DNA from: Cinnamomum chago
Lineage: Eukaryota; Streptophyta; Magnoliopsida; Laurales; Lauraceae
Direction of reading: 5' to 3'
DNA: 64,000 nt
Assembly: GCA_038049695.1 (NCBI GenBank)
Contig: CP142456.1
Span: forward strand, 18,070,501 to 18,134,500
The notes under the pieces are model-generated. The model was not told where the DNA came from. It did no database searches and saw nothing but the letters and a program-made list of their open reading frames with translations. Shown in pieces: positions 4,484 to 64,000 of the stretch (position 1 is the stretch's first letter; the number at the start of each line of letters is the position of its first letter). Position numbers and translations under genes: made by a program.

Positions 4484-5931
4484 TTACAATAGAAGGATGG
4501 GCCATTTTGCCAGTCGATCATTGAGAGAACCTGCTTTTGTGACAAGGACCTTTAAGAGGTTAATCCTCGAAATCAGGTAGACTGTGTTGGATAGCAGGTA
4601 GTGGCGTAGCTTTTGTATGGCGAATATTATTGCAAGGCATTCTTTTTCGATTGGAGAGTAGCGATGCTTTGCACCTACTAACATGTGACTGAGGTAATAT
4701 AGAGCAACTTCTTTTCCTTCGTCGTTTTCTTGTACGAGTAGAGCGCCCAAAGAACACTCGATAGCTCTTGTGTACAAGATTAATGGTTTTCCAGTTGTGG
4801 GGGCAGCCAACACTAGATGTTTGGTCATGTATGTTTTGATGTCTTGAAATGCAGCTTAACATTCAACATCCTAAACAAAGTCCACACCTTTTTTCATCAA
4901 GCGAGAGAATGGACTGCACTTCCCTAACAGATTAGAGATGAACCGTTGGATGTATGTCAATCTTCATTGAACCCCTTTTAGTTCTCTTAGGGTCCTTGGA
5001 GATGGCATTTCTAGGATAGTCTTGACTTTGGTGGGGTCAAGTTCTATTCCGGCTTTCTAAACTATAAATCCGAGAAACTTACCCGATGAGACACCGATGA
5101 AGCATTTTAGTGGATTCATCCGCAGTTTGTGTTTGTGAAGTCGGAGGAAGACTTTTCGAAGATCTTTGAGATGGTTTTCTTGTCTTTGACTTTTGACTGC
5201 GAGGTCCTCAACGTAACATTCGACCGTCTTATGCTGTATATCCTAGAATATCTTCATCATAGCCATCTGACATGTTACACCAGCATTTTTCAGACCAAAT
5301 GGCATGACAATGTAGCAATACAAGCCAAACGGGGTCCGAAATGATGTATGCTTTTCATTTTCAGGACGCATATTAATCTGATTGTAGCCAGAGAAGCCAT
5401 CCATGAATGTCATTCGCTCAAACCCACAGGTGTTGTCAATCATCACCTCTGGTATGGGGAGCGGGAATTCATCTTTAAGGCACGCATTATTTAGGTCTCT
5501 ATAGTCAATACAGATCCTAATCTGCTTATTTTTCTTTGTCACTGGGACAATATTGGCCAACCATTCAAGATGTTGTTCCCCACGGATGAAGCCAACGCTT
5601 TTGAGTTTCTGAATTTCTTGTTCAATTTTATCCATCACATCAGGACGAAATCTTCTTTGGCCGTGTTTGACAGGCTTGATATCTTGTTGTAAATTAAGTT
5701 TGTGGACTGCTATTTGGGGTCTAAGCCAGGCATTTCAGCATAAGACCATGCAAAACAATCAACAAACTCACGAAAGAAAGAGATATACTCGGGTAATTCA
5801 TCATCCTTTATATTCTTACTTATGAATACAGGACATGGGTCCTCAGGTGTCCTCAAATCTATTTTTTGAACATGATCTTCTGTTGAAAGGTTTGAAGGTG
5901 GTTCCTCCACAATATTTTTGGAGGCTTCCAA
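4484..5931 (-). pseudogene. Ty3/gypsy reverse transcriptase and RNase H remnant
   Basis: From the 5' side the minus strand encodes a pre-RT linker (5931-5710, ending W-S-YAEMPGLDP), the RT fingers and palm (from 5638, with RICIDYRDLN, FMDGFSGYNQI and YIVMPFGLKNAG), and RNase H (4862-4484, with ECSLGALLVQ and HRYSPIEKECLAI). The usual YVDD catalytic box is read as YVED at about 5209-5220, so one catalytic aspartate is replaced. Stop codons interrupt the frame near 5241 and 5058. Homologous enzymes copy element RNA and remove the RNA strand; this copy cannot. Confidence 0.85.
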
Positions 5932-25100: not shown

Positions 25101-26165
25101 ATAAATAGCATTTTCTTTTCCGCACATGTGGCGATTGTTTACTGTTTAGACAGATGTGTATGGGGCATGGCTGGGTCTGTTTACCCTTTAGACAGATGTG
25201 GATGGGGCATGGTTGAGGGGCCATGGGGCATGATGAATCTCTGCAAATTTCAAGAGGTCATCGAAGCATGGTGCGGGAGCTGAAGGCTTGCTGGGTAAAG
25301 GAAGAAAACCTTGAGGGGGTAAAGGAAGAAAACCTTGAGGGTGGAGCAGAGGTCGAGGTTGTGAAGTTGCAGTGGGGGGAAAGCGAGAAGAAGAAGGATG
25401 TGCAGGAAACGAAAAAGGTGGAGGCATTTCAAGACTAAGAAAAAAAGGGGTACTTGGATCTACGCTCACACAAGGTGCGAAACCCTACCAATCGAGAAAT
25501 CAGCAAAGAAAACCCTACAAAACCTCATTTTCCGGAACAGAATCGAGAAACCAGCAAAGAAAGCCAATACCGACCGATATTGAAGATCAATATCACTACA
25601 GAGATTGGAGCTCGATCGAGGATCGCTGGAGAAGAAGCTCCCCGGGGATGGAGTATGCATAAGTAAGACAACGTTGCAATGGTTTCTTGTATATTTTCCT
25701 GTCTGGGCCTCTTTCACTAGTACTATAATAGAATGACGAGAAAATAGAATAGCTGCACGAAAATAGAACGACGCTCTTCGCCGGGACCGGAGGAGGATAG
25801 CTATCGCCGTCGCGTTGCCGCCGTGCCGTGCCCGGAGAGGAAGGAGACGAAGAAATCCGGACGGGTGCAGGCTTCTGGTTGCAGGTTTTTGTTACAGAAC
25901 CAGGAAGAAGAGGACGACCTGGGGTGTATCTGGCCAGGTCGGGCCAGTTTTGGGTCGGGCTGACCTGACCCGTGCAGCTGAGCCTAGAAGCACATCAGGT
26001 GACGCCATCAGGGTTTAAACAGGTATGAGTAAGGCTTCGAGATTGTTTTGCTGAAAAAAGAAAAAGAAAAAAAAGAGGTGATTTGGGTACACTCTCTCCT
26101 CTTCAATCCGGCGTTTGGAAGGTTGTAAACACTGAGAAAGTTGTTTTTGTTTGTGATCTGGTAAT
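25101..26165. other. Upstream region of the PPR gene with two small tandem duplications
   Basis: A 42-bp unit containing TTTAGACAGATGTG is duplicated near 25145 and 25187. A 24-bp unit with TAAAGGAAGAAAACC is duplicated at 25296 and 25320. A GC-rich stretch at 25770-26000 may be part of a promoter or an unrelated gene remnant. Proline-rich and lysine-rich open frames here have no recognisable domain. Confidence 0.4.
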
Positions 26166-27362
26166 ATGATTTGCACTTCCATCAGTCGTTTCAATCTCTA
26201 CCGATGCTTCTTCAAAAAGATCTTCCTTTTTCAACCACGCTCTTCAAAATCACAACTTTTCAAATACCCATCTCTTATTTCCCCTTATTCTTCAAAACCC
26301 AGATCCCAATTTACAAGATCCAGATCAAAAAGCAAAGCACAAGCACAAGCATTAGCAGCAGCAGCACAAGACCTATTTCAGCAGTCCCTCTCTCAGCTTC
26401 CTCCAAGATTCACCACCCAAGATCTTTACAAGGCCCTCTCCCTCCAGAGAGACCCCAATGCCTGCCTCCTTCTCTTCAATTGGGCCTCCCAACAACCCAG
26501 ATTCCGCCATGATGTCTCCACCTTCCTCATCGTCATAAAGAAGCTTGGCGCAGCCCAGCTGCTCGACGAATTTGATGCTATTGTCAGCCAAGCTCTCTCC
26601 CTCTCCGTCACCTCTGAAACTCTATTCAATACCATCATCTATTTCTACACCGAATCACGCAAGCTGTCGAAGGCGGTATCGGTCTACAAGCACATGAAGA
26701 AGTGCAAAGACCCCCATTGCCGCCCTTCTGTCCGGACCTACAATCTGCTCTTCTCTGCGATGCTGAGCCGTGGAACCAATTCATACATCAACTACATGTA
26801 TATGGAGACAATTAGGTGCCTCTTCAAGCAGATGGTTGATGATGGGCTTGAGCCGGATGTGTTCTCCTTGAATGCCATGATCAAAGGATATGTTCTTTCT
26901 CTCCATGTGAACGATGCACTTCGGATATTTCATCAGATGGGGGCGGTTTATAAGTGTTTGCCTAATGCTTTCTCGTATGATTATCTTGTTCATGGGCTCT
27001 GTGCACAAGGGCGGTCGATGAATGCTCAGGAATTGTATGGGGAGATGAAGAGTAAGGGGTTTGTACCGAGCAGGAAGGCATATAATTCGCTTGTGAACTG
27101 TTTAGCTATTGGTGGGGAGGTCGATGAGGCAGTGAGGTTTCTGTGGGAGATGGAAGAAATGAAGCGGGCGGTGGATTCTATTACTTACCAAACCGTGGTG
27201 GATGCTTTAGGAAGGCAGGGGAGGGTCGAGGAGGCAGTGAGGTTGCTGAGGGAGTTGAGGGAGAAGGATATGTTGGATGGACAATTGTATGGGAAACTTA
27301 TGCATCTTCTTCAAGATGATTTTGGTGGATCCGATGGAAGAAACGGGTTTGGTGAGAGGTGA
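26166..27362 (+). CDS. Pentatricopeptide repeat (PPR) protein, probably organellar
   Basis: An uninterrupted 398-codon frame. Residues 1-60 are rich in Ser, Arg, Lys and Phe with almost no acidic residues, like a mitochondrial or plastid targeting peptide. Residues ~152-186, 233-262, 268-302, 304-338 and 339-370 fit the 35-residue PPR helical hairpin, for example FSLNAMIKGY, KAYNSLVNCL and ITYQTVVDALG. P-type PPR proteins bind organellar transcripts and guide their processing, stability or translation. No E, DYW or SMR extension is present, and the C-terminus is short. The absence of introns is typical of PPR genes. The start is the first in-frame Met before the basic leader. No stops or frameshifts are seen, and it is the only clearly intact host gene here. 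The exact orthologue was not identified. Confidence 0.88.
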   Translation: MICTSISRFNLYRCFFKKIFLFQPRSSKSQLFKYPSLISPYSSKPRSQFTRSRSKSKAQAQALAAAAQDLFQQSLSQLPPRFTTQDLYKALSLQRDPNACLLLFNWASQQPRFRHDVSTFLIVIKKLGAAQLLDEFDAIVSQALSLSVTSETLFNTIIYFYTESRKLSKAVSVYKHMKKCKDPHCRPSVRTYNLLFSAMLSRGTNSYINYMYMETIRCLFKQMVDDGLEPDVFSLNAMIKGYVLSLHVNDALRIFHQMGAVYKCLPNAFSYDYLVHGLCAQGRSMNAQELYGEMKSKGFVPSRKAYNSLVNCLAIGGEVDEAVRFLWEMEEMKRAVDSITYQTVVDALGRQGRVEEAVRLLRELREKDMLDGQLYGKLMHLLQDDFGGSDGRNGFGER

Positions 27363-41971: not shown

Positions 41972-43372
41972 TGGATTGATTCGGGAGCCACCAGGCACAT
42001 ATCAAGAGCCAAGGCTAGATTTATCGAATTCAAAGAGATGAAACTGGGAGATCAGAGTATTTACATGGGGAATGAAACATTTTGTGATGTGTTGGGTGTA
42101 GGAAAAGTCAAAATTCCCTTACCAACTGAAAAGTCCCTATATCTCTCCGATGTTTTCTTTGCTCCAGCTATGAGGAGGAGCGTCATCTCTGTGAGCGAAT
42201 TGGCTATGAATGGATTCGAAATCAGATTTAAAGATAAAGAGGTTACAATTGGCATGCTCTGTCAAGTTTTAGTCAATGATTTTCTTTCTGATAAGTTGTA
42301 TTTGATGGACACTCTTAATGATTAAATAAAATCTAGTTCTCATTATTCTGTGTGTGTGAATGTGTGCATGGACGGTTTGACAATGTTATGGCATATGAGC
42401 TTAGGGCACATTAACAAAAACAGAATAAGTAGAATGGTTAGGGATGGACTCTTATCAGATTTAGGTAAAGTGGAGTACCCAATATGTGAACCATGTCTGA
42501 GTGGAAAAATGGTCAAGAAACCATTTCCAAAAGGAACTAGAAGTTTAGAAACATTGACCACAATTCATTCTGATATTTGTGGACCATTGAATGTCCAAAA
42601 TAGAACGGGGGAGGACTATTTTATCACATTTATTGATGATTATAACAGATATGGTTATGTGTACCTGATTAAACACAAACATGAGGCCTTAAAAATGTTT
42701 CAAATATACGCTGCTGAGGTCCAAAATCAAAAGGGTAAGAAAATAAACCAGATTAGATCCGATTAGGGGGTGAATATACCTCAGAATTGTTCAGAGAATA
42801 CTGTGCATGTGAGGGAATCATTCATGAATATTCGATTCCATACACCCCACAATAAAATGGCGTGGCTGAGAGGAGGAATAAAACCTTAATGGATATGGTA
42901 AGGTCAATGATCAGCCACGCGAGACTTCCACTGTATTTGTGGGGAGAAGCATTAAACACGGCACAGTATATCCTGAACAGAGTACCCTCCAAAAGTGTGC
43001 CCAAGACCCTGTATGAATTATGGACCGGTGTCAAACCAAAATTAGAACATGTGAGAGTTTGGGGCTACCTTGTACATGTCCTGCTACCACCCAAGAAAGA
43101 TATAAACTGCAAGCTAAAACGAAGAAATTTTTTTCTTTTGTACCCATTACATTCCAAAGGATATCGTGTGTATGATCATGATAACAGGATAATCATGGAA
43201 TGCCGAGATGTGTTTTTACTTGAGGATCCGATGGTCAGTCCTAGAGTAGAACCACAGTGTGTGGAATTATATGAAATCTTTAAAGGCAAAGAGGTTCAAG
43301 TGGGGGTTCCAACGAAGAGGACGTTGGACATAGAATTCCTGGTCAGGGCCTACTTGAGGTGATTGAACAACC
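41972..43372 (+). pseudogene. Copia protease and integrase remnant
   Basis: It begins WIDSGATRHIS (protease, with the DSGA box), continues to a stop near 42323, then the GAG-pre-integrase/HHCC finger (LWHMSLGHI, CEPCLSGK) and the integrase core (HSDICGP and FIDDYNRYGYVYL supply the first and second catalytic Asp). A frameshift at about 42766 and a TAA after YTPQ (about 42855) precede [10 protein letters not shown], the catalytic Glu region. The C-terminal part runs to about 43372. Non-functional. Confidence 0.85.
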
Positions 43373-45337: not shown

Positions 45338-48300
45338 CTAATACCAAGTGGAGTGTCGCCCTGGCTCGATATCATCATCATTATCATTTCTTCGGTATTG
45401 GCTAAAAAGATATGCTCCATACTGCTGTGCAGCACTAGCACTACCATATCCATAACCATATTCAGATTGTTCTTGATAAGATGATGAACTATCTTGATCC
45501 CCTGTGTCTGTGGATTGAGATGGTTGGTTGTAATCATATGGCATGAAATAGTTATGAGGGGCATAAATAGGTCGTCGAGAAATTGGTGGGGGAAGCCTCC
45601 CTTGCTCAATTAACATCTGTTCAATAGAAATAATTGGTGTTGGTGAAGGGGGTACCCAATTAGGGTCATATGAATAACCCTCATGCTGTCCATACATGGC
45701 ACCTTGTTGGCCAACATAATCCCCATGTTGTCCATACATGGCACCTTGGCCAACATAACTTCCATGATGACCATGAGTAGCGGCGCCGGCGCTACTACTA
45801 CCCCCTGCCTCAGTCTGTCCAACATGTCTGATATAGCCACGGCGAGGATCTAACTCAGTAGCATGAGGAAAATGCTCAACTGTCTCATAAGTGACAGGCT
45901 CATCATCTTTGTAATGACCCTCATCCCCGGGAGAGTCAGGTGGAATTCCTGCTGATGATGAAGAAGTAGAAATACTTGACTCACTCTCTTCATCCACCTC
46001 CTTTCCCCTTGGCTCACTTGTATTAGGTGCACGCCCCTGCTGCATTGTCAAGTTTATTTCTTCTATCCTTTCTGCAGCCCTCACTGGCTCAGGCCTTTCC
46101 CCAGTCAATTCCTCTATCAACTGCTCAAACTCTGGGTCTTGGTCTAACACCGGTTCTTCTTGTTCCTCCAACCATTGACCTAACACAGTATCCTCTTCTG
46201 AAAAGATATAGTCCAAATTAATTGGACAGAAATAATCCCGGTGATCCTCAAACTGTCTTCTCCTTCTATTTCTACTCCGGAGTTTGAGGTTGTAGTGAAT
46301 GTAGACCAATTTATTTAGCTTTTGCATTGTCAATCTATTTCTTGGTCTTGTGTGGATAAATGAGAATGTGCTCCAGTTTCTTTCACAATTGGAAGACGAT
46401 GTAGTTTGACTAAGGACTTTAATAGCAATCGTCCTTAGTGCAGGAGCACTCTCTCCATAATTCAACCACCATTCAGCTGAAAAAAATAGAAATGATATTA
46501 AAGTCAATAAAATAAATAATAAGTCCTTAAATAATATAGAGATGACATTACAATCAATACCAGGATTGGTCTGTGTCACAGCTCTCCGTGCAGTCGTCGT
46601 TCCAAAGCTTCCAGCCCGTACATTGTATATGTCAATCTGAAGATATTAACGTAGAAAAATAAATTAGAGAAATTACAATGTTATATGCTTTTTTCCTTAA
46701 TTATCCTACATTCCTACCTGATTAGTAGCCCAAATTGCTTCATCTGTACTCTCTGCCAATCTTTCAATTACATTTTTTAGTCCCAAACGGATTTCATTAG
46801 ATATGTGTCCATCTATAAATTGGGGATTAAAGAAGTATCCTGTAACAGTAAAACCAATGAATTTTAGTCATTGATAAATTAATGTAGTAAGGATTGAGGA
46901 CTGAGGAGAGAATGGAGAGTTGAATACAACAATTCAAGTGTTAAAGACTTAAAGGATATTCTTCACTTACCGGCAATGTGTAAATCATGTTTTAATTGTC
47001 GTCCCCATCGATCGTCGATGATCTTCCAAAACTTTTTGTAATATTTACAATCTCCTTGAATAGCCAGCTTTGATCTCTCCATGGCCTCATGTAAGAACCC
47101 CATTGTTGGCTTATCATCGCCATCAACCAATCGAAGAACCTTTATTAAGGGTTCAAAAACATTTAAAACACCCTTCACATGAGGCCAAAACTTGTTGGAC
47201 TCAATTGTTTTACATACTTCAACAGTAATGGGACTTGGCCTTTTTCCCCATTTTGAATTCATGAATTCATTTGATTTTATCAATCGGAGAAGTCCTTCTC
47301 TATACTTGTAAACACTTTCGATAGCAATGAAGTTGGTGGCAAATCTAGTGATGCCAGGCCGTAGTAATTCATGGTTGTCTGTATGCATTTTCATCATGGA
47401 AATGAGTCTATATGATTGATAAAAAAAATTGGTGATCTTCTTTATCTTACCAATCACAAACTTCATGACTTTTCCTTTTGCAATATCTTCAAGCATTAAA
47501 TCCAAGCAATGTGCTGCACATGGAGACCAAAAAATCCTTGGCCTTTGTTTCATAAGCATCGTTCCTGCAGCCTTCATGTTTGCAGCATTGTCGGTAACAA
47601 CCTGAACTACACAATCTGCCCCAACTTCTTCAATCACCTCATTCAATAACTTATTAATATATTTTGCATCTTGAATGTAATCAGTTGCATCAACTGATTT
47701 GATAAACACCGTGCCCATAGACGAGTAGACTAGAAAATTCAAGAGATGACGGTGTGTGATGGTCGTCCACCCATCGCACATTAGTGTACAACCTCTTTCC
47801 TTCCATGCCCATTTGAAAGTTTGCACCCAAGCCTGCAACTCTTCATACTCTTTCTCAACACATACATGCCCAATCTCATAAGGGGTAGGTGCTTTTATAC
47901 CTGGACCATGTTCTGCAGCTGCATCTAACATAGTGGTGAAATAAGGAGATGATGCCTTGTTGGGAGGAATGCCTCCGTCCAAAAAAAACTTCCCAGCGGC
48001 TCTCACTAGATGTTCTCTTGCTTTACCAAGCCTACCCGTTAATGCTTTCATAATGCTGGGCTGCTTTGATGTTGGTTTTCTATAAGAATATGGGTCAGTT
48101 GACCCCACTTGCTGAGGTGCACGTGTAGGAGTTCTTTCAATCTCCTCAATGTCTGGATCTCGACGGGGTTGTTTTTGACTAAATGCCCGACGCAAACTTG
48201 CTCCCCCAGGTTCGGATGACCCACCCTGCTCATATTGGCTACCTCTAGAGGCTGCTTCATATTGCATTTTTCTTCTCTCTTCCTCCTCTTGAAGTGACCT

Positions 48301-48639
48301 AATACTTTCTCTCCTAGCCTTCCTCATTTCCAGGTCTTCATCGTCATCATCATCGGAGGAACTGAATATTTCTTCTCTACATGCATCAATTTCCTCAGTT
48401 CTTCTTTTTTGTTGTAACTCTTTTTTTTTTGTTGTTGCATTTAGGAGCTCCCTCATTTCAGCAGTTACATTTGGTGGCACTTTATGACATTTTATCACCT
48501 GTCCTGTTACATGCCCCAAATGTTGTTTCAATCGAGTAATCCCGCCATTGAACACTCTTCCACAATAATTACATTTCACTCTACTTTTGCTTCCAGCTGG
48601 TTCACCATGGTTCCATGCCGGATCTATTGAACGCACCAT
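45338..48639 (-). CDS. hAT transposase, four exons, 1001 residues
   Basis: Exons on the minus strand are 48639-46971, 46839-46718, 46636-46561 and 46476-45338. Each intron has GT/AG borders and the phases join without a stop (3006 nt). The start is MVRSIDPAWN, just after a possible 5'UTR acceptor. Domains in order: BED zinc finger (C23, C26, H40), an acidic/Arg-rich linker, a DUF659-like region with LMCDGWTT and TDNAANM, which hold likely catalytic Asp residues, then SPCAAHCLDLML, and the hATC dimerisation region in exon 4 (RTIAIKVLSQTTSSSNCERNWS). A Gly/Tyr/Gln-rich tail with repeated GAMYGQH words follows. It should cut and paste this element. Splicing is inferred, not observed. Confidence 0.9.
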
Positions 48640-48699
48640 CTTGTTCCTATAAAATAAGAAATTCATGCAATACAGCAATAGTAATACACTAATACTCTT

Positions 48700-49545
48700 A
48701 AGAACAATTATTTTTAGGAAAATTCAAGATTTAATAAAATCATTTTCAATATCCTAAATATATAGATCTAACATAAAAGTATGTAGATCTATCATTTACA
48801 CACCATACAATGATCATTAATCATTAAAAGAACATATTTATGATGAAATCTCCAAAAAATGATATATTATAATTCAAATATTAAAAAATCCGAAAATAAA
48901 ATAATTAAAATAAAAATCATAATCATGTTTATGACTATGAGTAGATGTAGATCTATCATCTACACACTATTAATAAGCCTTTGGTTTCACAAATATCCTA
49001 ACAAGTAATAACAATTAATTTTTGAAAAAAAAATTAATAAAATCATTTTCAAAATCCTAAATATATAGATCTAAGTTCTAACATGAAAGTATGTAGATCA
49101 ATCATTTACACATCATACAATGGTCATTAATCATTAAAAGAACATATTTATGATGAAATCCCCAAAAAATGATATATTATAATTCAAATATTAAAAAATC
49201 CGAAAATAAAATAATTAAAATAAAAATCTAAATCATGTTTATGACTATGAGATAGATGTAGATCTATCATCTACACACTATTAATAAGCCTTTGGTTTCA
49301 CAAATATCCTAACAAGTAACAAAAATTATTTTTTGGAAAACAAAAATTAATAAAATCATTTTCAAAATCCTAAATATATAGATCTAACATAAAAGTATGT
49401 AGATCTATCATTTATACACCATACAATGATCATGAATCATTAAAACAACATATTTATGATGAAATCCCCAAAAAATGATATACTATAATTCAAATATTAA
49501 AAAATCCGAAAATAAAAAAAATTGAAAAAAAAAGTTCAAAATCAT
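48700..49545. repeat. About 2.7 tandem copies of a ~305-313-bp unit upstream of the transposase
   Basis: The word CCTAAATATATAGATCTAA starts at 48753, 49056 and 49369. Long stretches, including ATGATATATTATAATTC and AGCCTTTGGTTTCAC, are nearly identical between units. The array lies between the transposase start and the right terminus, where the promoter should be. Confidence 0.9.
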
Positions 49546-55215: not shown

Positions 55216-55289
55216 GGTGACTCATTTACATCCACTACAACAGTTTACACATTTAGCTATGAAATTTTTCGTCGCAAAAAGTCAACAAG

Positions 55290-56365
55290 ACGTCGGTAAA
55301 AACCTTTACCGATGAAAATAATTTCGTCGGCCAGACGTCGGTAAAAAGTGGTGGACAAAACCTTTTACGGAAGAAATTTTTTTCCATTGGCAAAAATTAG
55401 ATTTTTACCGACGTTTTTAAATCGTCGGTAAATTTATTTTACTTTTCTAAAAATTGAATATAAATTTTACCGACGTTTCATTTTCTTCAGCAAAAGAAAA
55501 AAAATGAAAAAAGTTTTACCAACGTTTTTTTTTCGTGGGCAAGAGAGAAGAAAAAATGAAAAAAATTTTACCAATGTTTTATTTTCGTCAGCCAAAGAAA
55601 AAAAGAAAAAAAAATGAAAATTTTTTTACCTACGTTTTTTTTTTCGTCGGCAAAAGAAAAAAAATGAAAATTTTTACCGATGTTCTATTTTCGTCGGCAA
55701 AAGAAAAATGAAAAAACTTTTACCGACGTTTTATTTTCGTCGGCAAAAGAAAAAAAGAAAAAAAATGAAAAAAATTTTACCGACGTTTTTTTTTTCGTCG
55801 GCAAAAGAAAACAAAAACGAAAATTTTTACCGATGTTTTATTTTCGTCGGCAAAAGAAAAATGAAAAAACTTTTACCGACGTTTTATTTTTGTCGGCAAA
55901 AGAAAAAAGGAAAAATAGAAAAAATGAAAAAACTTTGCCAGACATTTTATTTTCCTCGGCAAAAGAAAAAAGGAAAAATAAAAAAATGAAAAAACATTTG
56001 CCGACGTTTTATTTTTGTCAGCAAAAGAAAAAGAGAAATTCTTCTTGGACATACTGGGGGACCGATTCCTGGCCTGGTCCCCCCAACCCTTGGATCCCAG
56101 ACCTCTCTGGGATCCAAGGGTTGTACTGGGGGACCGGGCTAGGAATCGGTCCCCCAGTATGTCCATGTAGCAAAAGTCAAAGAAAAAAGGAAAAATAAAA
56201 AAATGAAAAAACATTTGCCGACGTTTTATTTTCGTCGGTAAAAGAAAAAAGGAAAAATAAAAAAAAATGAAAACTTTTGCCGACGTTTTATTTTCGTTGT
56301 TAAGGAAAATAAAAATAATAAAAATAATTTTTACCGACGTTTTTATTTTCGTCGGTAAAAGTATT
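55290..56365. repeat. CACTA subterminal repeats (TTTTACCGACG / CGTCGGCAAAAG)
   Basis: More than a dozen TTTTACCGACGTTTT motifs, each paired with a nearby inverted CGTCGG(T/C)AAAA motif, at roughly 70-bp intervals separated by A-rich spacers. The long Lys/Phe-rich open frames here are a by-product of the array. Confidence 0.85.
56047..56164. repeat. Near-perfect foldback inside the subterminal array
   Basis: Arms 56047-56100 and 56107-56164 begin GGACATACTGGGGGACCG and differ by two substitutions and a four-base indel, with a 6-bp loop. The outer bases CTTCTTGGACA/TGTCCATGTAG resemble the MITE ends at 951/1068. Confidence 0.85.
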
Positions 56366-56789
56366 TAATTTTTTTTAAATATGGTATTTGTTTTTTCAAT
56401 ATAATTTTCCTATAAACCTGTATATACACCTGTATCAAAAAATAAACATGTTCGTATACCCATATTCAATATAAAAAATGCATGTAAACACAAATTACTA
56501 AATAAACAAACAACCATCGCCATTTTTCATCAAATCATTCATCTTATTAAACAAATATTACAATTAATAATGATACAGTTCCATATAAATGTCCAATATA
56601 CATATACAAATAAATTAAAAAGAATAAAACACCCCCCAATCCTACAACCGACCCCAAAGCATCCATCAATCTGCAATGATAAAAACAACACTAGAATATT
56701 TTCAATGAATTAAATTATAAATGAAAGATAAACATGTATATATATATATAAATCTTTTCGTAAGTGTTGAGGATTAGGCGATTTTTGTG

Positions 56790-57965
56790 TCTAAATTCGT
56801 TTACCGAAAGTCCGATTCACTAACCGTCAATTCCTACAAGTTACTTTGGCCTTCAATAAGGTACCCATGCTAAGTTCTTGGCTGTCCGACGGCCGTTTCC
56901 CGTTTTCGACCTCCGACGGCCTATTTTTTGAGACTTGAGTGTTAAGAATCCAACGTTTTTAGGTCACTAATCGGGAGTCCTATTTGCGAACCGTCAGTTC
57001 CTACAAGTCACTCTACCCTCGAGCCAGGTGCTCGTGCCGGTTTCCGATTTTTCCGATGGCTGATTCCTGTCTCGGACCCTCGACGGGCCGTTTTCGAGCC
57101 TAAGTGTTGGAAAACCCGATGTTTTCGCTTCTAATTCTCTAACCGGGAGTCCTATTTGCGAACCGTTAGTTCCGACAAGTCACTCTATCCTAGAGCCAGG
57201 TGCTTGTGTCGATTTTCGATTTTTCCTGGGGCCAGTTTCCGTTCCGGATCCCCGGCGGGCCGTTTACGAGCCTAAGTGTTGGAAAACCCGATGTTTCCAC
57301 TTCTAATTCTCTAACCGGGAGTCCTATTTGCGAACCGTCAGTTCCTACAAGTCACTCTACCCTCGAGTCAGGTGCTCGTGCCGGTTTCCAACTTTTTCGA
57401 GGGCCGGTTCCCGTTCCGAACCCCGGCGGGCCGTTTTCGAACCTAAGTGTTGGAAAACCCGATGTTTTTGCGTCTAATTCTCTAACCGGGAGTTTTATTT
57501 GCGAACCGTCAGTTCCTACAAGTCACTCTACCCTCGAGCCAGGTGCTTGTGCCGGTTTCCGATTTTTCCGGGGGCTGGTTCCCGTTCCAGACCCCCGGCG
57601 GGCCGTTTTCGAGCCTAAGTATTGGAAAACCCGATGTTTTCGCTTCTAATTCTCTAACCGAGAGTCTTAGTTGCAAACTGTCAGTTCCTACAAGTCACTC
57701 TACCCTCGAGCCAGGTGCTCATGCCGGTTTCCGATTTTTCCGGGGGCCGGTTCCTGTTCCAGACCCCTGGCGGGCCCTTTTTGAGCCTAAGTGTTGGAAA
57801 GCCTAATGTTTTCACTTCTAATTCTCTAATCGGAAATCCTATTTACGAACCAACAGTTCCTACAAGTCACTCTACCCTCGAACCAGGTGCTCGTGCCGGT
57901 TTCCGATTTTTCCGGGGGCCGGTTCCCGTTCCGGACCCCCGGCGGGCCATTTTCTAGACTAAGTG
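56790..57965. repeat. 172-bp tandem repeat, about seven units
   Basis: The landmark GGGAGTCCTATTTGCGAACC recurs at 56973, 57145, 57317 and 57488, with degenerate copies near 56803, 57660 and 57832. Spacing is 170-172 bp. Units contain CCGGGGGCCGG and GTTTTCGAGCCTAAG blocks. Open frames across it are translation artefacts, since 172 is not a multiple of three. Confidence 0.93.
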
Positions 57966-59339
57966 TTGAAATACCGGGGGGCCCAGCTTGAGTAAATTAA
58001 CAAATTCACATCGTTTTCAAAATAGATTAAGAAGGTCACGGTTTAGCATATATACTAAGCAAGGCATGGAATTGAAGCTTATTTGATTGTTATAAAAAAT
58101 TACATCTTGCGTCAAGGAATGCATGTTAATTGACAAAATGCACTCACAAGCAGGTAGACTTCAAACAGAGAGATTCCTAACACTGCCACAAGCCTGGCAA
58201 AGAAAAAAATAAAAATTCATCCGCATTTAAGAAAACCTAAATGATCAATAAAATAAACAAAAAATTAAATAAAATAAGGTAAAAGATTCCTTCATACATC
58301 TAGAAAGTATTACCTTCAGATTGGAAATGATAAGTAATTTTTATTGATAGTATAAATCAGAAATTATGGAAAATAGGAACAATGATCAACAGAATTAAAA
58401 GTCTGGTTTAAGATTAAAATATGTCTCACAATGTTGGAAAATGGGTGGAGCTAGTCTGGGCCTAGCACAAGTGTCGTCTGCCTTGGGATGAGTATTAAGG
58501 GGCATTGGGAGAACCCATGCCTGTTTTCTTGGCCAAAAGATAAACTGGCTATCCGAGGCCTATGTCTTCTTAAAGACCTAATGAGATGACCAGCCAAACA
58601 TTCATCATAAATAAGAACATTTTTCCAATGAACTTGGCTCAAGCCAAACTTTTAGTTATATGATGAATCCATACTGGGCCATGGGCTGAAGGATGCACCA
58701 GAGCCAGAGACAATTAATATCATTGATGTACACCCCTATGGACACTGCAGTCGAAATTACAACATACATGTCAACTGCTGAAAATGGTATAAAAATTTCA
58801 TGCACTGAAGGAAGTAGGAACCGCAGGAGAGAAAAGAAATTAAAGATTTTGGCAAGTATCGATAGATAAACACTGGAACCCTGTCCTATCCTTGAAAAAT
58901 TCATCACAGTTGATCAGACAATCAATCTGCTTTGACATTTGCCTCACTCTGAAGATGAGTCAATATCAGGTCAGAATTGAAGTCATAATTGGTTTCTGTT
59001 ATATAGGGAAGGGCTCACCCGCTTGTTTAGCTTGCTCCACAAGGCCCTGCTGACAGAGAACAGGTTCTCACATACCCTTAAACCTCTTCCTCTATTAACC
59101 ACATGCTCTAAGGGCCAGTGTCCTCTGTGTGTGACCAGCCACATGGACAGAAATTACAATATGATTTAGGCCACAATTTATAATGGTAAAAAATAATAAT
59201 GAACTGCTGGCTGCAGTACTAAAACAGCGTTTTTGTGGAAATCTAATTCAGAAAAGCAAATGAACTTTTTAAAAATAATAATGAACTGTTGTCTTAAATA
59301 TTTGCAGTACAAATCACTATCACAAACAAATGAGAGTAC
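57966..59339. other. Unassigned sequence, possible tiny exon
   Basis: Near 58148-58195, minus strand, an AG acceptor and GTGAGT donor bracket LVAVLGISLFEVYLL, a membrane-segment-like peptide I cannot assign. The 58451-58907 frames have no known domain. Confidence 0.3.
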
Positions 59340-59618
59340 CTGTATGAGGCCCTTTATGCACCAGACATTATGCTTTAAAACAGCTGAATGGCCAGAACCT
59401 CTCCAGTTGCCTTGACAAGTCTGCTTAATACGGCACGAGAGTCTCCAACATTTGCAACGTACAAAGTTTCACCACATATCACACGAACAGGACAACAAGA
59501 TCCAACTGCAGCAATCTGGGGGCCACTGTTTAGTGACGAGAGAAAAAACCTACTTCCGTTGCTTGGTATGCTTTCCCTATAACATCTGCTGACATTGACT
59601 GTTGCTCTGATGCAAACC
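59340..59618 (-). pseudogene. PP2C protein phosphatase exon fragment, frameshifted and internally deleted
   Basis: Between an AG acceptor (59619-59620) and a GT donor (59339-59338) the minus strand reads [21 protein letters not shown], then after a one-base frameshift [31 protein letters not shown] and [10 protein letters not shown]. It then jumps to [14 protein letters not shown]. Plant clade-D PP2Cs have roughly 26 residues between those last two blocks, so a piece is deleted. The GDSRAVL metal-site motif is present, but the upstream DGHGG exon and the later exons were not found. The family dephosphorylates Ser/Thr, for example on plasma-membrane H+-ATPase. This piece cannot encode an enzyme. 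Confidence 0.88.
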
Positions 59619-60430
59619 CTGCAAATTAGCAGCCAAGTCATAACCTGTATCTTGGCTGAATTGGCTGTCGTCTTTGAAACTTAGTATTATTGTAGCCTAA
59701 TATAAGGAAATGAAAGGAAGAAGGAAAGACATGTTTAGAGAAATTATAGCATGAAAAGGAAATCTAACGGAGGATATCGCCCTAAACATATTTGAAAGGC
59801 GTCGTCAAATCCATATATATAGCCGACCCCACCTATTGGAATAAGGCTTGGTTTGGTTTGGTTTGGTTTAGTAAAGCATGAAAATGAAACTTTATGAGGA
59901 GAACCGATCAGCAAAGGAGAAAAGCACCAAAAAATCCAGCATAGCAAACAGATGTGGCCACGAGGTATGTCCAAAAAAAAAAAAAAAAAAATACAAACAA
60001 AAGAAAAAACTTCCATACACTTCCATTAATTATTGAAAAGATAGAAAGACAATGTTAAGCCAAAAGTACTACTAGGAAAAAAGGGGTACTTAAGAGTCAG
60101 GGACTGAAATTGGTGAATCAACAGACAAATTATGGAAAGCTACTGGCTCCTTTTAAGAGATTGAAGATTGATGATCAACTTGTCAAAATATCCATAAACT
60201 CTCTTCCATTAATTTAGGAGATTGTTCTAGTAAATTTCAACAATGCCACATCTAGAGTTGAGCATGCAACTGAGTTGGACAATGGATAGTGCTTCAATCA
60301 TGACATTGTGAGATCTATCCCATGTTATCCACTTAAAAGAAAGACTCTTCTCTCTTCCTGCAAAGACTGAAGATTTTATCCAAGTAAATAGTTAAAGCAT
60401 CTGTTTGGGAAATCAGAAGAAGAACTTCAC
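59619..60430. other. Unassigned, with a SINE-like tract
   Basis: Around 59805-59872, read on the minus strand, a (CAAAC)n run is followed by AAGCCTTATTCCAATAGGTGGGG, resembling the AAGCCTTATCCCACTAGGTGGGGTCGGCTA word of plant SINE-like repeats. The rest is noncoding. Confidence 0.35.
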
Positions 60431-60495
60431 CTTCGCCACATCAAAGCGTTGGCAGTCCATAGCTGCTATGGCCACCAGCTCATAAAGAGTCCACT
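60431..60495 (-). pseudogene. EMC2: EMC2-like (ER membrane complex subunit 2) exon fragment
   Basis: A 65-bp exon with AG acceptor (60496-60497) and GT donor (60430-60429) reads WTLYELVAIAAMDCQRFDVAK, close to the first TPR-region segment of plant EMC2/TTC35. That protein helps insert membrane proteins into the ER. Only this exon is seen; the following DCIK...RVGRLEA part is absent. Identity is from recalled family sequence. Confidence 0.7.
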
Positions 60496-60939
60496 CTACA
60501 TCAAGTAACACAAAATGAAAGGAAGGCTGATTTTATTTCCAATAACAACAAATAGCTGTAAATTTCAGACACAAGAAACAAGTTTTATAAATAAATAGAT
60601 TTAGAAATTAAAAGAAAAACACGTGCCAAGATTTGCAAGGCACAAGTGCCAAAGTAAGTTTTGATTCCCAGATGCTAGGCAATTCATATAATCTAAAATG
60701 CTGCTCTATCTAAAACATAAAAACATTAAACAACCATGCATCAACAATAATGATCACTCAATTACAAAGGTGCATTGGCTATAGAGCATTGACTACTCAA
60801 TCATAGAACAAATAAGCCAAGGAAAAAGGCCAATAGGTTGGGCATATAGGTGTGTCCATGCATGTGATAGAAAGGAAGAAAGGCTAAGGATAAAACCTCG
60901 AGATATACATGTTTGTCCAATAGCCTGGGCATATAGGTT

Positions 60940-61172
60940 TTTTATTTTTCCGGGGGCCGTTTCCCCCTTCCAGATCCCCGGCAAGCTGTTTTCGAGCCTA
61001 AGTGTTGGAAAATTCTATGTTTTCGCTTCTAATTCTCTAACCGGGAGTCCTATTTGTGAACCGTAAGTTCCTACCAGTCACTCTAGCCTTGAGCGAGGTG
61101 CTCGTGCCGGTTTTCAATTTTTCCGGGGGCCGTTTCCCTTTCAGACCCCCGGCAGGCCGTTTTCGAGCCTAA
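60940..61172. repeat. Isolated 1.3 units of the 172-bp repeat
   Basis: TTTTTCCGGGGGCCG at 60945, CTCTAACCGGGAGTCC near 61032 and a second TTTTTCCGGGGGCCG near 61117 match the array at 56790-57965, about 3 kb away. It lies between the EMC2 and UFD1 fragments. Confidence 0.92.
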
Positions 61173-61211
61173 GTGTCAAGAGTAAATAAAATAGAATGAA
61201 GGATAATAAAC

Positions 61212-61295
61212 CTTATCAATCAAAGAAGAAGGGTAACACCGATACATCTGCTCAAATGACCCAACGTCATGATCATAGCCATATCCTTGATAAGT
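61212..61295 (-). pseudogene. UFD1: UFD1-like exon fragment
   Basis: An exact 84-bp (28-codon) exon, AG acceptor at 61297-61296 and GT donor at 61211-61210, contains SFEQMYRCYPSSLIDK. This is the conserved N-terminal start of UFD1 (family: SFEQ-x-YRCYP-x-SFI-x-K), an adaptor of the CDC48/p97 segregase in ER-associated degradation. Adjacent UFD1 exons (PQLENGDKI...) are not present. Confidence 0.85.
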
Positions 61296-62298
61296 CTGCA
61301 AAACCATCAACAATAAGAGAAAAGGTCAAGACAAAAATGTGGCTTGAGGAATCGATTTATTTGACAAATCAATAAGCTACATAACATAAAATCTAACATT
61401 TGGGTGGCCTGAAAAATCAGGCATTGGCTGGTTGATAATGCAAGATAATCCTCGGAGTAGCAACGAGGGCTGGCTGCAGTCTTTTAAATCCAAAACCAGC
61501 AGATACACAGCAGGAAATTGACAGATTAACCTAGGCATCAGCACCTAGGATCTTGGAGTCAGTACCAAGAATTGGAAAGAGTCAACACCATTTGCATGGA
61601 GTCTTCACGACACCATGACACAAGAAGAAAAATATAGCCTTTGTTCAAAACTATTCCACTAAACAATTAAATAGTGCCACAAGTTACAATATATGTGGAT
61701 TACTAGGTCCTATTGCAAATTTGTAGGATAGAAGTCCTTGTTACAAGAGAATCTCAACCAACCCTCCTCAGTTAAACCTCCTAAAAATAAAGAACACTCT
61801 TTCTGTTAATATGACTATCACAGTAAGGTACGGTGAGTGTATAAGATCACAACTTTATCTTTATAAACATAGTGCAAGAGAACTTAAAGATATGAACATG
61901 AAGTATCAAGACTAACCTTCATTGCATGTACTACTAGTACTCCAAACCATATAGTTCGCAATCTTCAAAAATCCATTCTGAGGTTTCATTCTTGCTTCTC
62001 TTCCTCGAATCCTTGTACATGATTCACACTGTAAGATCTTCAATCCGGCTTATAACCCACTGATGACATCATGAATAGTTGTGACTACTTAGTATTTACA
62101 CAGGATAAAGCAATAAACTTTCCATAAGAGAAATACTCACATGGAAATGAAGGAAATTATATCATATATTCAACAAAAACATCAATAGAATCTACTTGCA
62201 GGAACCATGGAGTTTTATCTTTCAGCAAGTTCTGCCAGCTGATAAAATCACATACAAACTATATAATTTTGGAACAAGCAAATGCACCAAGAACCTAC
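61296..62298. other. Unassigned, with two exon-like pieces
   Basis: On the minus strand ~62027-61918 an open piece with AG and GT borders reads CESCTRIRGREARMKPQNG and cannot be assigned. Near 62238-62163 a frame with LLKDKTPWFLQVDSI follows a TATCAG acceptor. It weakly recalls the next MCM6 segment but is too divergent to call. Confidence 0.3.
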
Positions 62299-62696
62299 CG
62301 TGAAATGCTGGCTATCATCATCATCGACGACATCTCTCCTTGTACTTCTAACGTTGCTGCCCCTTCCATCACTTGCCACCTTAATGTACGTGCATGATGA
62401 CGAAATGAATGAGCAATGAAAGAAAGAAACAAAGAACAAAAAAAGAAAGAAAAATGGAACCAGTTATACTCCACACAAACATGAGAGAGATGGCACTCAC
62501 CTGCACTGAATTTGCAATGAATGCAAGCTGATAGGAGAGGTCTCTCACTCCCAATGCCCGAAGACCCTTAACACCTTCATGCCCACCAAATGCACCCTGT
62601 CTCTGAGATGCTTCACGCCGGCATTCTGCTCTCTCGCCAGTTGAAGCTAATGCCATTATATCTGGTATGACCACCACTGTGCCTGTGAATATAACC
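62299..62696 (-). pseudogene. MCM6: MCM6-like fragment, two exons
   Basis: Exon 62696-62501 reads [45 protein letters not shown] and LAFIANSVQ up to a GTGAGT donor. Exon 62379-62299 reads DGRGSNVRSTRRDV..DDDDSQHFT up to GTAGGT. Both follow the N-terminal region of plant MCM6, a subunit of the replicative helicase, in the right order with an intron between. The AAA+ ATPase exons (Walker A, Walker B) and the earlier N-terminal exons are absent, so this cannot make a helicase subunit. No frame break inside the two exons. Confidence 0.88.
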
Positions 62697-62917
62697 CTAC
62701 AAAGTCATTACAAAAAAATCAATCATTTGAACAAAATTTAGAGCGTAGAATACAGTTACACAACTCTTTAACTTCCAAAGAGGAAATTAAATATTGAGAT
62801 TGAAATGATGCCAAAAAGCACAAATTATCAACTAGGAAGTGGATTCTCAGAAATCTACCAAAAAAAAAAAAAAAAAAAAATGTTTTCATGTGTCCTCATA
62901 AAATAAAATACTCTTAC

Positions 62918-63030
62918 CAACCAGCTTTCACTTGTGTCAACAGCAATGCAACTGACCCATGAGGAGGCTTCCTTCAACTTGGATTTATCTTTGGGATTTA
63001 TAACTTGAACACTTTTTCCACTTTTGCAGT
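62918..63030 (-). pseudogene. DWA1: DWA1/THO6-like WD40 exon fragment
   Basis: With acceptor TAG at 63033-63031 and GTAAG donor from 62917, the exon reads DCKSGKSVQVINPKDK and SSWVSCIAVDTSESWLV. This resembles the WDCKTGKCV...SCMALD..ESWLVCG strand of plant DWA1, also named THO6, a WD40 protein of the THO mRNA-export complex and a DDB1-binding factor in ABA signalling. A single exon only. Identity is from recalled family sequence, so the family (WD40) is surer than the gene. Confidence 0.65.
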
Positions 63031-63472
63031 CTACCAGTTACAGATAACCACAAAACACATCACAATAAGCAACAGTGAACTCCAAATATAACTATTCCAT
63101 ATCAATGTTCTATTAATCAAACCAAAAGGCAAAAACAGATATATATCAGTGTTGGAAAACTTTGGATAAGATAGAGAGAAAAATAAGAACATCTATCCTT
63201 ATCCCATTTTCACAAATGCTCATAAGAAAACCATAATAAAATATCAGATTTGTAAACATTTTATTGGTCATGCCAATCATATGGACAACATAATGAAAAA
63301 GTTCCTACTTTTCATCTTTTGGAGGTGGGTTTTGTGAGCTCATTTCATTTCCTTTATGTTTAAGAATTAAATTCATCCTAGTCTCTGGCATTTAGCATTT
63401 ATTCTTCCTGTATAATTCACTAAAGCATCATTAAGGACTACTTATCCAAATTAAAATAGGGTGGTACCATAC

Positions 63473-63629
63473 CTGCATACCACTGCTTCTGAAGGCTGTT
63501 AGCAGTGTAAATATTAGAAAAGGAGTCCTCAAATGCTTTGTCATCAACGCCAGTCAATCCATTGTCATAGAAATTATCACCAGTAGAGATTACAAAGTCT
63601 ATGTCTAGATTCTCTCCTACCCTTCCCAT
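63473..63629 (-). pseudogene. Purple acid phosphatase exon fragment
   Basis: A 157-bp exon from a TTTGCAG acceptor to a GTATGG donor reads [25 protein letters not shown], then [16 protein letters not shown]. The GDNFY block holds metal-binding residues of low-molecular-weight plant purple acid phosphatases (PAP3/8/17-like), secreted or vacuolar enzymes for phosphate scavenging. The next exon (GNHDY...) is not found downstream. The exon start is duplicated just upstream (63664-63767). Confidence 0.87.
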
Positions 63630-63767
63630 CTGCAAAAGAAAATAACCAAACAACACCTCAAATTCAATCCATTGTCATAGAAATTATCACCAGTAGAGAT
63701 TACAAAGTCTATGTCTAGATTCTCTCCTACCCTTCCCATCTGCAAAAGAAAATAACCAAACAACACC
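63554..63767. repeat. 110-bp tandem duplication of intron/exon border in the PAP fragment
   Basis: 63554-63657 and 63664-63767 are identical over 104 bp, at a period of 110 bp. Each copy has the intron end, the CAG acceptor and the first ~76 bp of the exon. The period is not a multiple of three, so reading through both copies shifts the frame. Confidence 0.95.
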
Positions 63768-64000
63768 AAAACTCATTGTTTAATCAGGACATTTAACCAA
63801 CAGCAAAGATATGGGTCATTTGCAATTTTGTATTTGTAAGCATCTCGAGATATGTTCTTGTCTCATTTCTCTAAAACACCTAGCCACCACACAAATAACA
63901 AATCAATACCCAATTTCTAAAAACTAAGCATTCATTAAAAAAAATAAAAAAATAAAATAAAAAAAATAAATAAAAAAAAAAATAGAGAGAGAAGGAAGGT
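63768..64000. other. Noncoding end of window
   Basis: Nothing recognised. A simple A-rich (AAAAT)n stretch occupies 63930-63985. Confidence 0.6.

Follow-up and report, generated by a model that had tools for sequence, protein, structure and literature searches.

A 64,000-nucleotide stretch of Cinnamomum chago DNA (the window throughout; G000:C6:18070501-18134500 in the same-genome assembly of 1.06 Gb) contains the left part of a transposable element that carries fragments of six unrelated genes. Our analyses identify this element, with high confidence, as a 24.6-kb CACTA (En/Spm-type) DNA transposon of the Pack-CACTA kind, which gained its host-gene segments in several rounds. It measures 24,645 bp, from 55233 to 79877 in window coordinates, its right part lying beyond the 64-kb window, and is organized as follows:

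55233-55242, plus strand: left CACTA terminal inverted repeat (TIR), CACTACAACA, with the target duplication ATC directly before it at 55230-55232
55250-56361, plus strand: left subterminal array of palindromic ACCGACG...CGTCGGT repeats
56794-57975, plus strand: array 1, a tandem 172-bp repeat of the element family, present in many family copies
57984-58674, minus strand: left DWA1/THO6 segment, with exon 58080-58193 (amino acids 276-313), one stop and the donor lost
58675-59762, minus strand: PP2C segment, with exon 59340-59618 and deletions of 10 nt and 79 nt
59952-60919, minus strand: EMC2 segment, with exon 60431-60495
60936-61176, plus strand: array 2, 1.4 units of the 172-bp repeat of array 1, directly adjoining UFD1
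61171-61970, minus strand: UFD1 segment, with upstream region, exon 1 with its ATG (61398-61424), intron 1 and exon 2 (61212-61295)
61979-62855, minus strand: MCM6 segment, with two adjacent exons (62501-62696 and 62299-62379)
62871-63120, minus strand: right DWA1/THO6 segment, with exon 62918-63030 (amino acids 238-275)
63160-64000 and on to 64134, minus strand: purple acid phosphatase (PAP) segment, with exon 63473-63629, partly tandem-duplicated to 63773
79868-79877, outside the window: right end, TGTTGTAGTG, followed by ATC

The limits of the element are sharply defined. The original prediction, made from the letters of the window, had placed a CACTA-type terminus and a subterminal array ahead of the gene fragments, and motif counts bear this out: CACTACAACA occurs a single time in the 64-kb window, at 55233; its 18-base extension CACTACAACAGTTTACAC, at up to three mismatches, has one match where 0.03 are expected; and the subterminal motif CGACGTTTTATTTTCGTCGG, at the same tolerance, has 11 matches, all in 55471-56300, against 0.01 expected. 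The prediction had called for an inverted CACTA end flanked by a matching duplication of 3 bp, and one is present 15.9 kb past the window end. There, TGTTGTAGTG, which has zero occurrences within the window, pairs with CACTACAACA perfectly across 10 bp, and the 3-bp target site duplication (TSD) is likewise perfect, with ATC before 55233 and after 79877. A second CACTA end before 58 kb, named in advance as evidence against the proposal, was not found in the motif scans of the window. Subterminal repeats are present at both ends, the left-end sequence also matching positions 5249-5742 of the stretch L008, near the right end. TIRs starting with CACTA, a 3-bp TSD and subterminal repeats at both ends are the features of the CACTA (En/Spm) superfamily, and two further features are those of Pack-TYPE (Pack-CACTA) elements: host-gene DNA with a source elsewhere in the genome, found for five of the six genes, and related genome copies, with array-cargo joints common to C3, C4, C5, C6, C8 and C9.

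The predicted pieces of PP2C, EMC2, UFD1, MCM6, DWA1/THO6 and purple acid phosphatase, all on the minus strand and with intron sequence, were confirmed by profile, structure and protein matches. PP2C was identified by Pfam (E 7e-7), each of its three pieces matching 114 of 120 listed proteins; MCM6 and PAP were identified by solved structures (best E 1e-11 and E 1e-7, respectively). The two matches among 12 candidate proteins were a WD-repeat protein (P0121, E 3e-14) for DWA1 and a Persea americana protein carrying PF03152 (P0122, E 1e-8) for UFD1. For EMC2 the query was a plant EMC2 stretch, which itself matches solved EMC2 at E 2e-37 and has 73% identity to 60431-60496 (E 1e-6); the EMC2 fragment alone matched nothing among solved structures or in Pfam, and Pfam gave no match for five short exon pieces. 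Searches by tblastn with whole proteins added UFD1 exon 1 and the second DWA1 exon, 58080-58193. The claim that no fragment has its neighbouring exons consequently fails, since UFD1 exon 1 lies beside exon 2, MCM6 has its two exons next to each other and DWA1 has a second exon; a pair of consecutive exons is preserved for each of UFD1, MCM6 and DWA1, half of the six genes. Consensus splice borders, which had been attributed to every fragment, were present at all eight acceptors examined (AG) and at eight of nine donors (GT), as placed by us at the nearest AG or GT, the left DWA1 exon having lost its donor. The single orientation, offered together with the mosaic of unrelated exons as the mark of transposon capture, holds for all six genes, but is no more than a mild surprise (p=0.03 on a coin-flip model). 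Within the PAP segment, 63554-63773 contains a perfect 104-nt direct repeat at 110-bp spacing that is single in the source gene; the duplication is either recent or an assembly artefact.

Sources were sought by comparing a 6-kb cargo query with the same genome; scoring 40 of 2,711 candidates gave at least 267 matches at E<=0.001. Multi-exon copies were recovered elsewhere for five of the six genes, namely DWA1, UFD1, MCM6, PAP and PP2C. The DWA1 source lies on C1, with the left half at 15533275-15533963, the right half at 15534357-15534605 and exons covering amino acids 180-380 by tblastn. The same approach delimited the sources of PP2C (C5:12521840-12523267; amino acids 1-106 and 108-230), UFD1 (C11:44746932-44747737; amino acids 1-42 and 57-322), MCM6 (C7:51550714-51551580; five exons) and PAP (C1:128028700-128029398 and beyond; five exons). 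EMC2-related stretches were found on C2 (with the array of the element), C4 (two exons) and C11 (one exon), their matches starting at 59952 or 60051; a further EMC2 exon was absent from the 5.8 kb beside the C4 match. The search for parental genes advised by the prediction thus succeeded for five genes and left EMC2 unsettled. We infer capture at the DNA level, because intron sequence is kept; transduplication by a transposon, as first proposed, is supported by the sources of five genes, by the retained introns and by joints that recur in family copies.

The cargo is tightly packed. Gaps between successive segments measure 0, 16, 8, 15 and 39 bp, and the UFD1 segment overlaps array 2 by 6 bp (AAGTGT). 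The PP2C-EMC2 gap is 189 bp, part of which (59786-59875) we take to be a SINE-like (short interspersed nuclear element) 3' end with a TTTGG-repeat tail.

An exon mosaic that keeps introns and runs in one orientation is also expected of Helitrons, and stepwise capture of several gene fragments is described for maize Helitrons (PMC3288121). A Helitron lying in or beside a CACTA remnant is nevertheless a very improbable carrier here. One hairpin-CTRR-T match occurs on the minus strand of 55-64 kb against 0.08 in shuffles; however, this match, at 55400, is itself a palindrome of the CACTA subterminal repeats, and the only other in the 64-kb window, the sequence scanned, is at 43339 on the plus strand. 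Helitrons have a 3' hairpin with CTRR and A/T insertion, and lack TIR and TSD, both of which are present here: the block lies between two CACTA ends with a 3-bp TSD, and its cargo is linked to the element by the 172-bp array. Pack-MULEs, which have long TIRs and a TSD of about 9 bp, were considered and rejected given the 10-bp perfect TIR and 3-bp TSD. We give still less credence to the chance proximity of a CACTA end to a segmental duplication or to a host locus of real genes; the exons keep splice sites, as those of such a locus would, but only one or two exons per gene are present, the source copies lie on other contigs and the block is enclosed by both element ends with a matching TSD.

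Related copies elsewhere in the genome illuminate how the cargo was assembled. The array adjoins DWA1 at the joint seen in the window in C4, C6, C8 and C9, and the DWA1/PP2C joint between 58674 and 58675 recurs in C4, C9 and C6. On the other hand, the array adjoins UFD1 in C3 and C5, and lies beside EMC2 in C2. The C3 copy has an end of its own, CACTACGACA, 70% alike to the left end in the window, followed by subterminal repeats, array and UFD1; beside it (L057) is an 83% relative of the reverse transcriptase open reading frame (ORF) described below. C9 matches pieces of all six genes in window order over 52 kb, read outside a large middle part, and its PAP matches overlap as for a single copy, without the duplication. 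The 79-nt PP2C deletion is common to the window and C4, which does not have the 10-nt one. From these joints, it is most likely that two lineages, one with array-DWA1-PP2C and one with array-UFD1, came together in the present element, array 2 marking where they meet.

In the gene, the two DWA1 exons directly follow one another; in the element they lie 4.7 kb apart, separated by PP2C, EMC2, array 2, UFD1 and MCM6, and the DWA1 pieces of the element lack 393 bp of intron sequence that connects the halves in the source. The two pieces probably derive from one capture, split by later cargo. Substitutions relative to the source, counted with gaps left out, exons and introns mixed and p-values uncorrected, amount to 31/675 and 11/249 for the left and right DWA1 halves, 46/1070 for PP2C, 27/799 for UFD1, 22/859 for MCM6, and 13/497 for PAP, with 13/295 beyond the PAP duplication; EMC2 differs by 24/775 from C2, 31/874 from C11 and 40/904 from C4. 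The two halves of DWA1 are alike in divergence (p=1.0); pooled, they are more diverged than MCM6 (p=0.03) and than MCM6 and UFD1 combined (p=0.04), as expected if DWA1 was captured first and later split.

Nested insertion by itself, that is, a single DWA1 capture with everything between its exons inserted later into that intron, would account for the consecutive exons, their correct order and orientation and their equal substitution distances to the source, and is a possibility to be taken seriously, somewhat short of an even chance. Against it, array 2 lies inside the supposed insert and separate array-UFD1 joints exist on C3 and C5, both pointing to two joined lineages, and an unsplit DWA1 segment was found in none of six sister loci compared with the source. 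In the account that we prefer, the element acquired segments of 0.25-1.1 kb from six host genes over several rounds and inserted at its present site already carrying this cargo. Capture probably took place when breaks or gaps in or between copies were mended with unrelated or sister-element DNA.

Several observations weigh against this account. None of the EMC2 loci on C2, C4 and C11 was shown to be a complete gene, and the UFD1 piece of C9 is without exons. No CACTAC-type end was present in the stretches fetched from C4 and C9, and these copies may be truncated. The age order is not clean, as PAP beyond the duplication, supposedly younger, is as diverged as DWA1. Protein changes in the two DWA1 exons, 0/38 versus 6/38 (p=0.025), count against one capture and against nested insertion. 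Finally, no transposase domain was detected in the ORFs scanned, which were some of those in 55-80 kb; the element is probably non-autonomous.

Comparison of element ends with shared cargo suggests that cargo has passed between diverged element lineages, the alternative being a faster rate of change at the ends. Between the window and C4, non-repetitive near-end stretches differ at 36/383 (left) and 28/302 (right) positions, 64/685 together, whereas shared cargo differs at 26/690 in DWA1 and 16/593 in PP2C, 42/1283 together; the right subterminal repeat (14.4%) was excluded from this test. The near-end stretches are thus about three times as diverged as the cargo (p=4e-8 jointly, 5e-6 and 3e-5 alone), and transversions alone place ends above cargo as well (p=7e-4). 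Similarly, the window and C9 differ at 41/389 in the left end and 31/551 in the cargo (p=0.006), and C4 and C9 at 28/384 and 22/552 (p=0.04). Because the cargo joints have one origin and the ends are more diverged, exchange between lineages is a fair reading. In a fuller and tentative form, to which we give less than even weight, gene cassettes would pass between diverged CACTA lineages, array-DWA1-PP2C and array-UFD1 having been joined at the common 172-bp array, whose inner edge would be a recurrent place of capture and exchange; on this view the element would hold and recombine cassettes instead of representing a simple line of descent. Telling against this, the ends may just accumulate changes more quickly than the cargo, each copy having inherited its cargo with its ends. 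Such simple descent, for which common joints and the common 79-nt PP2C deletion speak by indicating a single cargo origin, is comparably plausible and equally below an even chance in our estimate; the threefold excess of both near-end stretches over cargo against C4, seen in transversions too, and the like trend of the left end against C9 argue against it. The occurrence of one gene in two wheat CACTA families was taken by the authors as recent DNA exchange (PMC4290129).

The phase of the inner edge of the array is 144-148, 139 and about 122 of 172, a common phase being only suggestive, and the end of another array, in C8 (L041), has phase 76. The right flanks of arrays 1 and 2 resembled each other no more than expected by chance (p=0.15). 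Short direct repeats near the joints, including an imperfect 22-bp repeat at the left edge of array 2, were rejected as evidence: five were listed in two stretches against 0.19 in shuffles, but the remaining 55 kb of the window contain 89. A scan of viral contigs for the array gave no match.

Chimeric splicing of the cargo would be possible, because of the preserved acceptors and donors reported above. None of the chimeric reading frames is conspicuous: the longest stays open for 148 codons, a length reached by 25% of the 5,040 orders of seven exons and by 20% of 3,000 sampled orders of eight, for which reason selection for such a frame was rejected. The two indels of the PP2C fragment weigh further on a chimeric frame. 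Most likely, the element would have no host effect beyond small RNAs or chance chimeric transcripts.

The right part of the element (64-80 kb) contains subterminal repeats, an ORF of the long interspersed nuclear element (LINE) type and two high-copy repeats. The nested LINE-type reverse transcriptase ORF, on the minus strand at 74796-77321 (L008:896-3421), has 842 codons and matches RVT_1 at E 3e-34. One high-copy repeat occupies 64131-66575 (L007), with copies about 90% identical; it may be the internal region of the element itself, because pieces are also found on C2 and C5, at loci with both array and cargo. The second extends from about 67966 on. A 6-kb query of this part against the same genome (40 of 4,152 candidates scored) gave only high-copy repeats among the matches listed, and Pfam yielded no transposase and no convincing match for three ORFs of 64-67 kb. 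The left subterminal array holds a fold-back insertion at 56041-56170, resembling a miniature inverted-repeat transposable element, with 43-nt arms 91% complementary; self-comparison of the window listed no other copy. Elsewhere in the window are hAT-type transposase remnants on the minus strand (45341-48723; DUF659, BED finger and dimerisation region) and an At2g27800-like pentatricopeptide repeat (PPR) gene (26157-27359), whose product shares 97% identity with a protein of Cinnamomum micranthum f. kanehirae, the best of 304 matches at E<=1e-60; this match probably places the plant in or near Cinnamomum. Rfam gave no match at gathering score in the window.

How cut-and-paste transposons gather many gene pieces is not settled. 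Ends, sources, joints and several relatives with overlapping cargo in one assembled genome make the order of captures, and whether elements exchanged cargo, testable. They also carry a warning for annotation, as exons of this kind with good splice sites are easily called genes. Among the papers listed in literature searches, none dealt with CACTA elements capturing genes in Lauraceae.

Comparable elements are known from other plants. One is Tgm-Express1 of the soybean wp allele, a 5.7-kb CACTA element (Zabala and Vodkin 2007, PMC1947982) containing exon and intron sequence from five unrelated host genes, whose cargo is spliced into chimeric mRNAs (PMC1947982). Both elements hold exons and introns of unrelated host genes. 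In contrast to Tgm-Express1, with its smaller size and known transcripts, the present element is 24.6 kb long and has two arrays in its interior, a DWA1 exon pair separated by other cargo, and relatives whose cargo overlaps with its own. It resembles Pack-CACTA and other Pack-TYPE elements in combining CACTA ends with captured coding DNA (PMC8903248; review PMC13317346), for which the joining of neighbouring insertions has been proposed as a route (PMC8903248, PMC13317346), and differs from the Pack-CACTA elements described in Arabidopsis, rice and maize in its Cinnamomum host and its 172-bp tandem arrays. On wheat chromosome 3B, 140 CACTA capture events were reported (PMC4290129), scored as genes flanked by two elements of the same family, whereas here a six-gene mosaic is found. 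Chenopodium CACTA elements likewise contain gene fragments and tandem (satellite) arrays, with one captured gene each, in the descriptions consulted, instead of six (PMC8978399). Gene-collecting CACTA elements are already known; in this one, an unusually readable history of assembly shows some of the order in which its parts came together.

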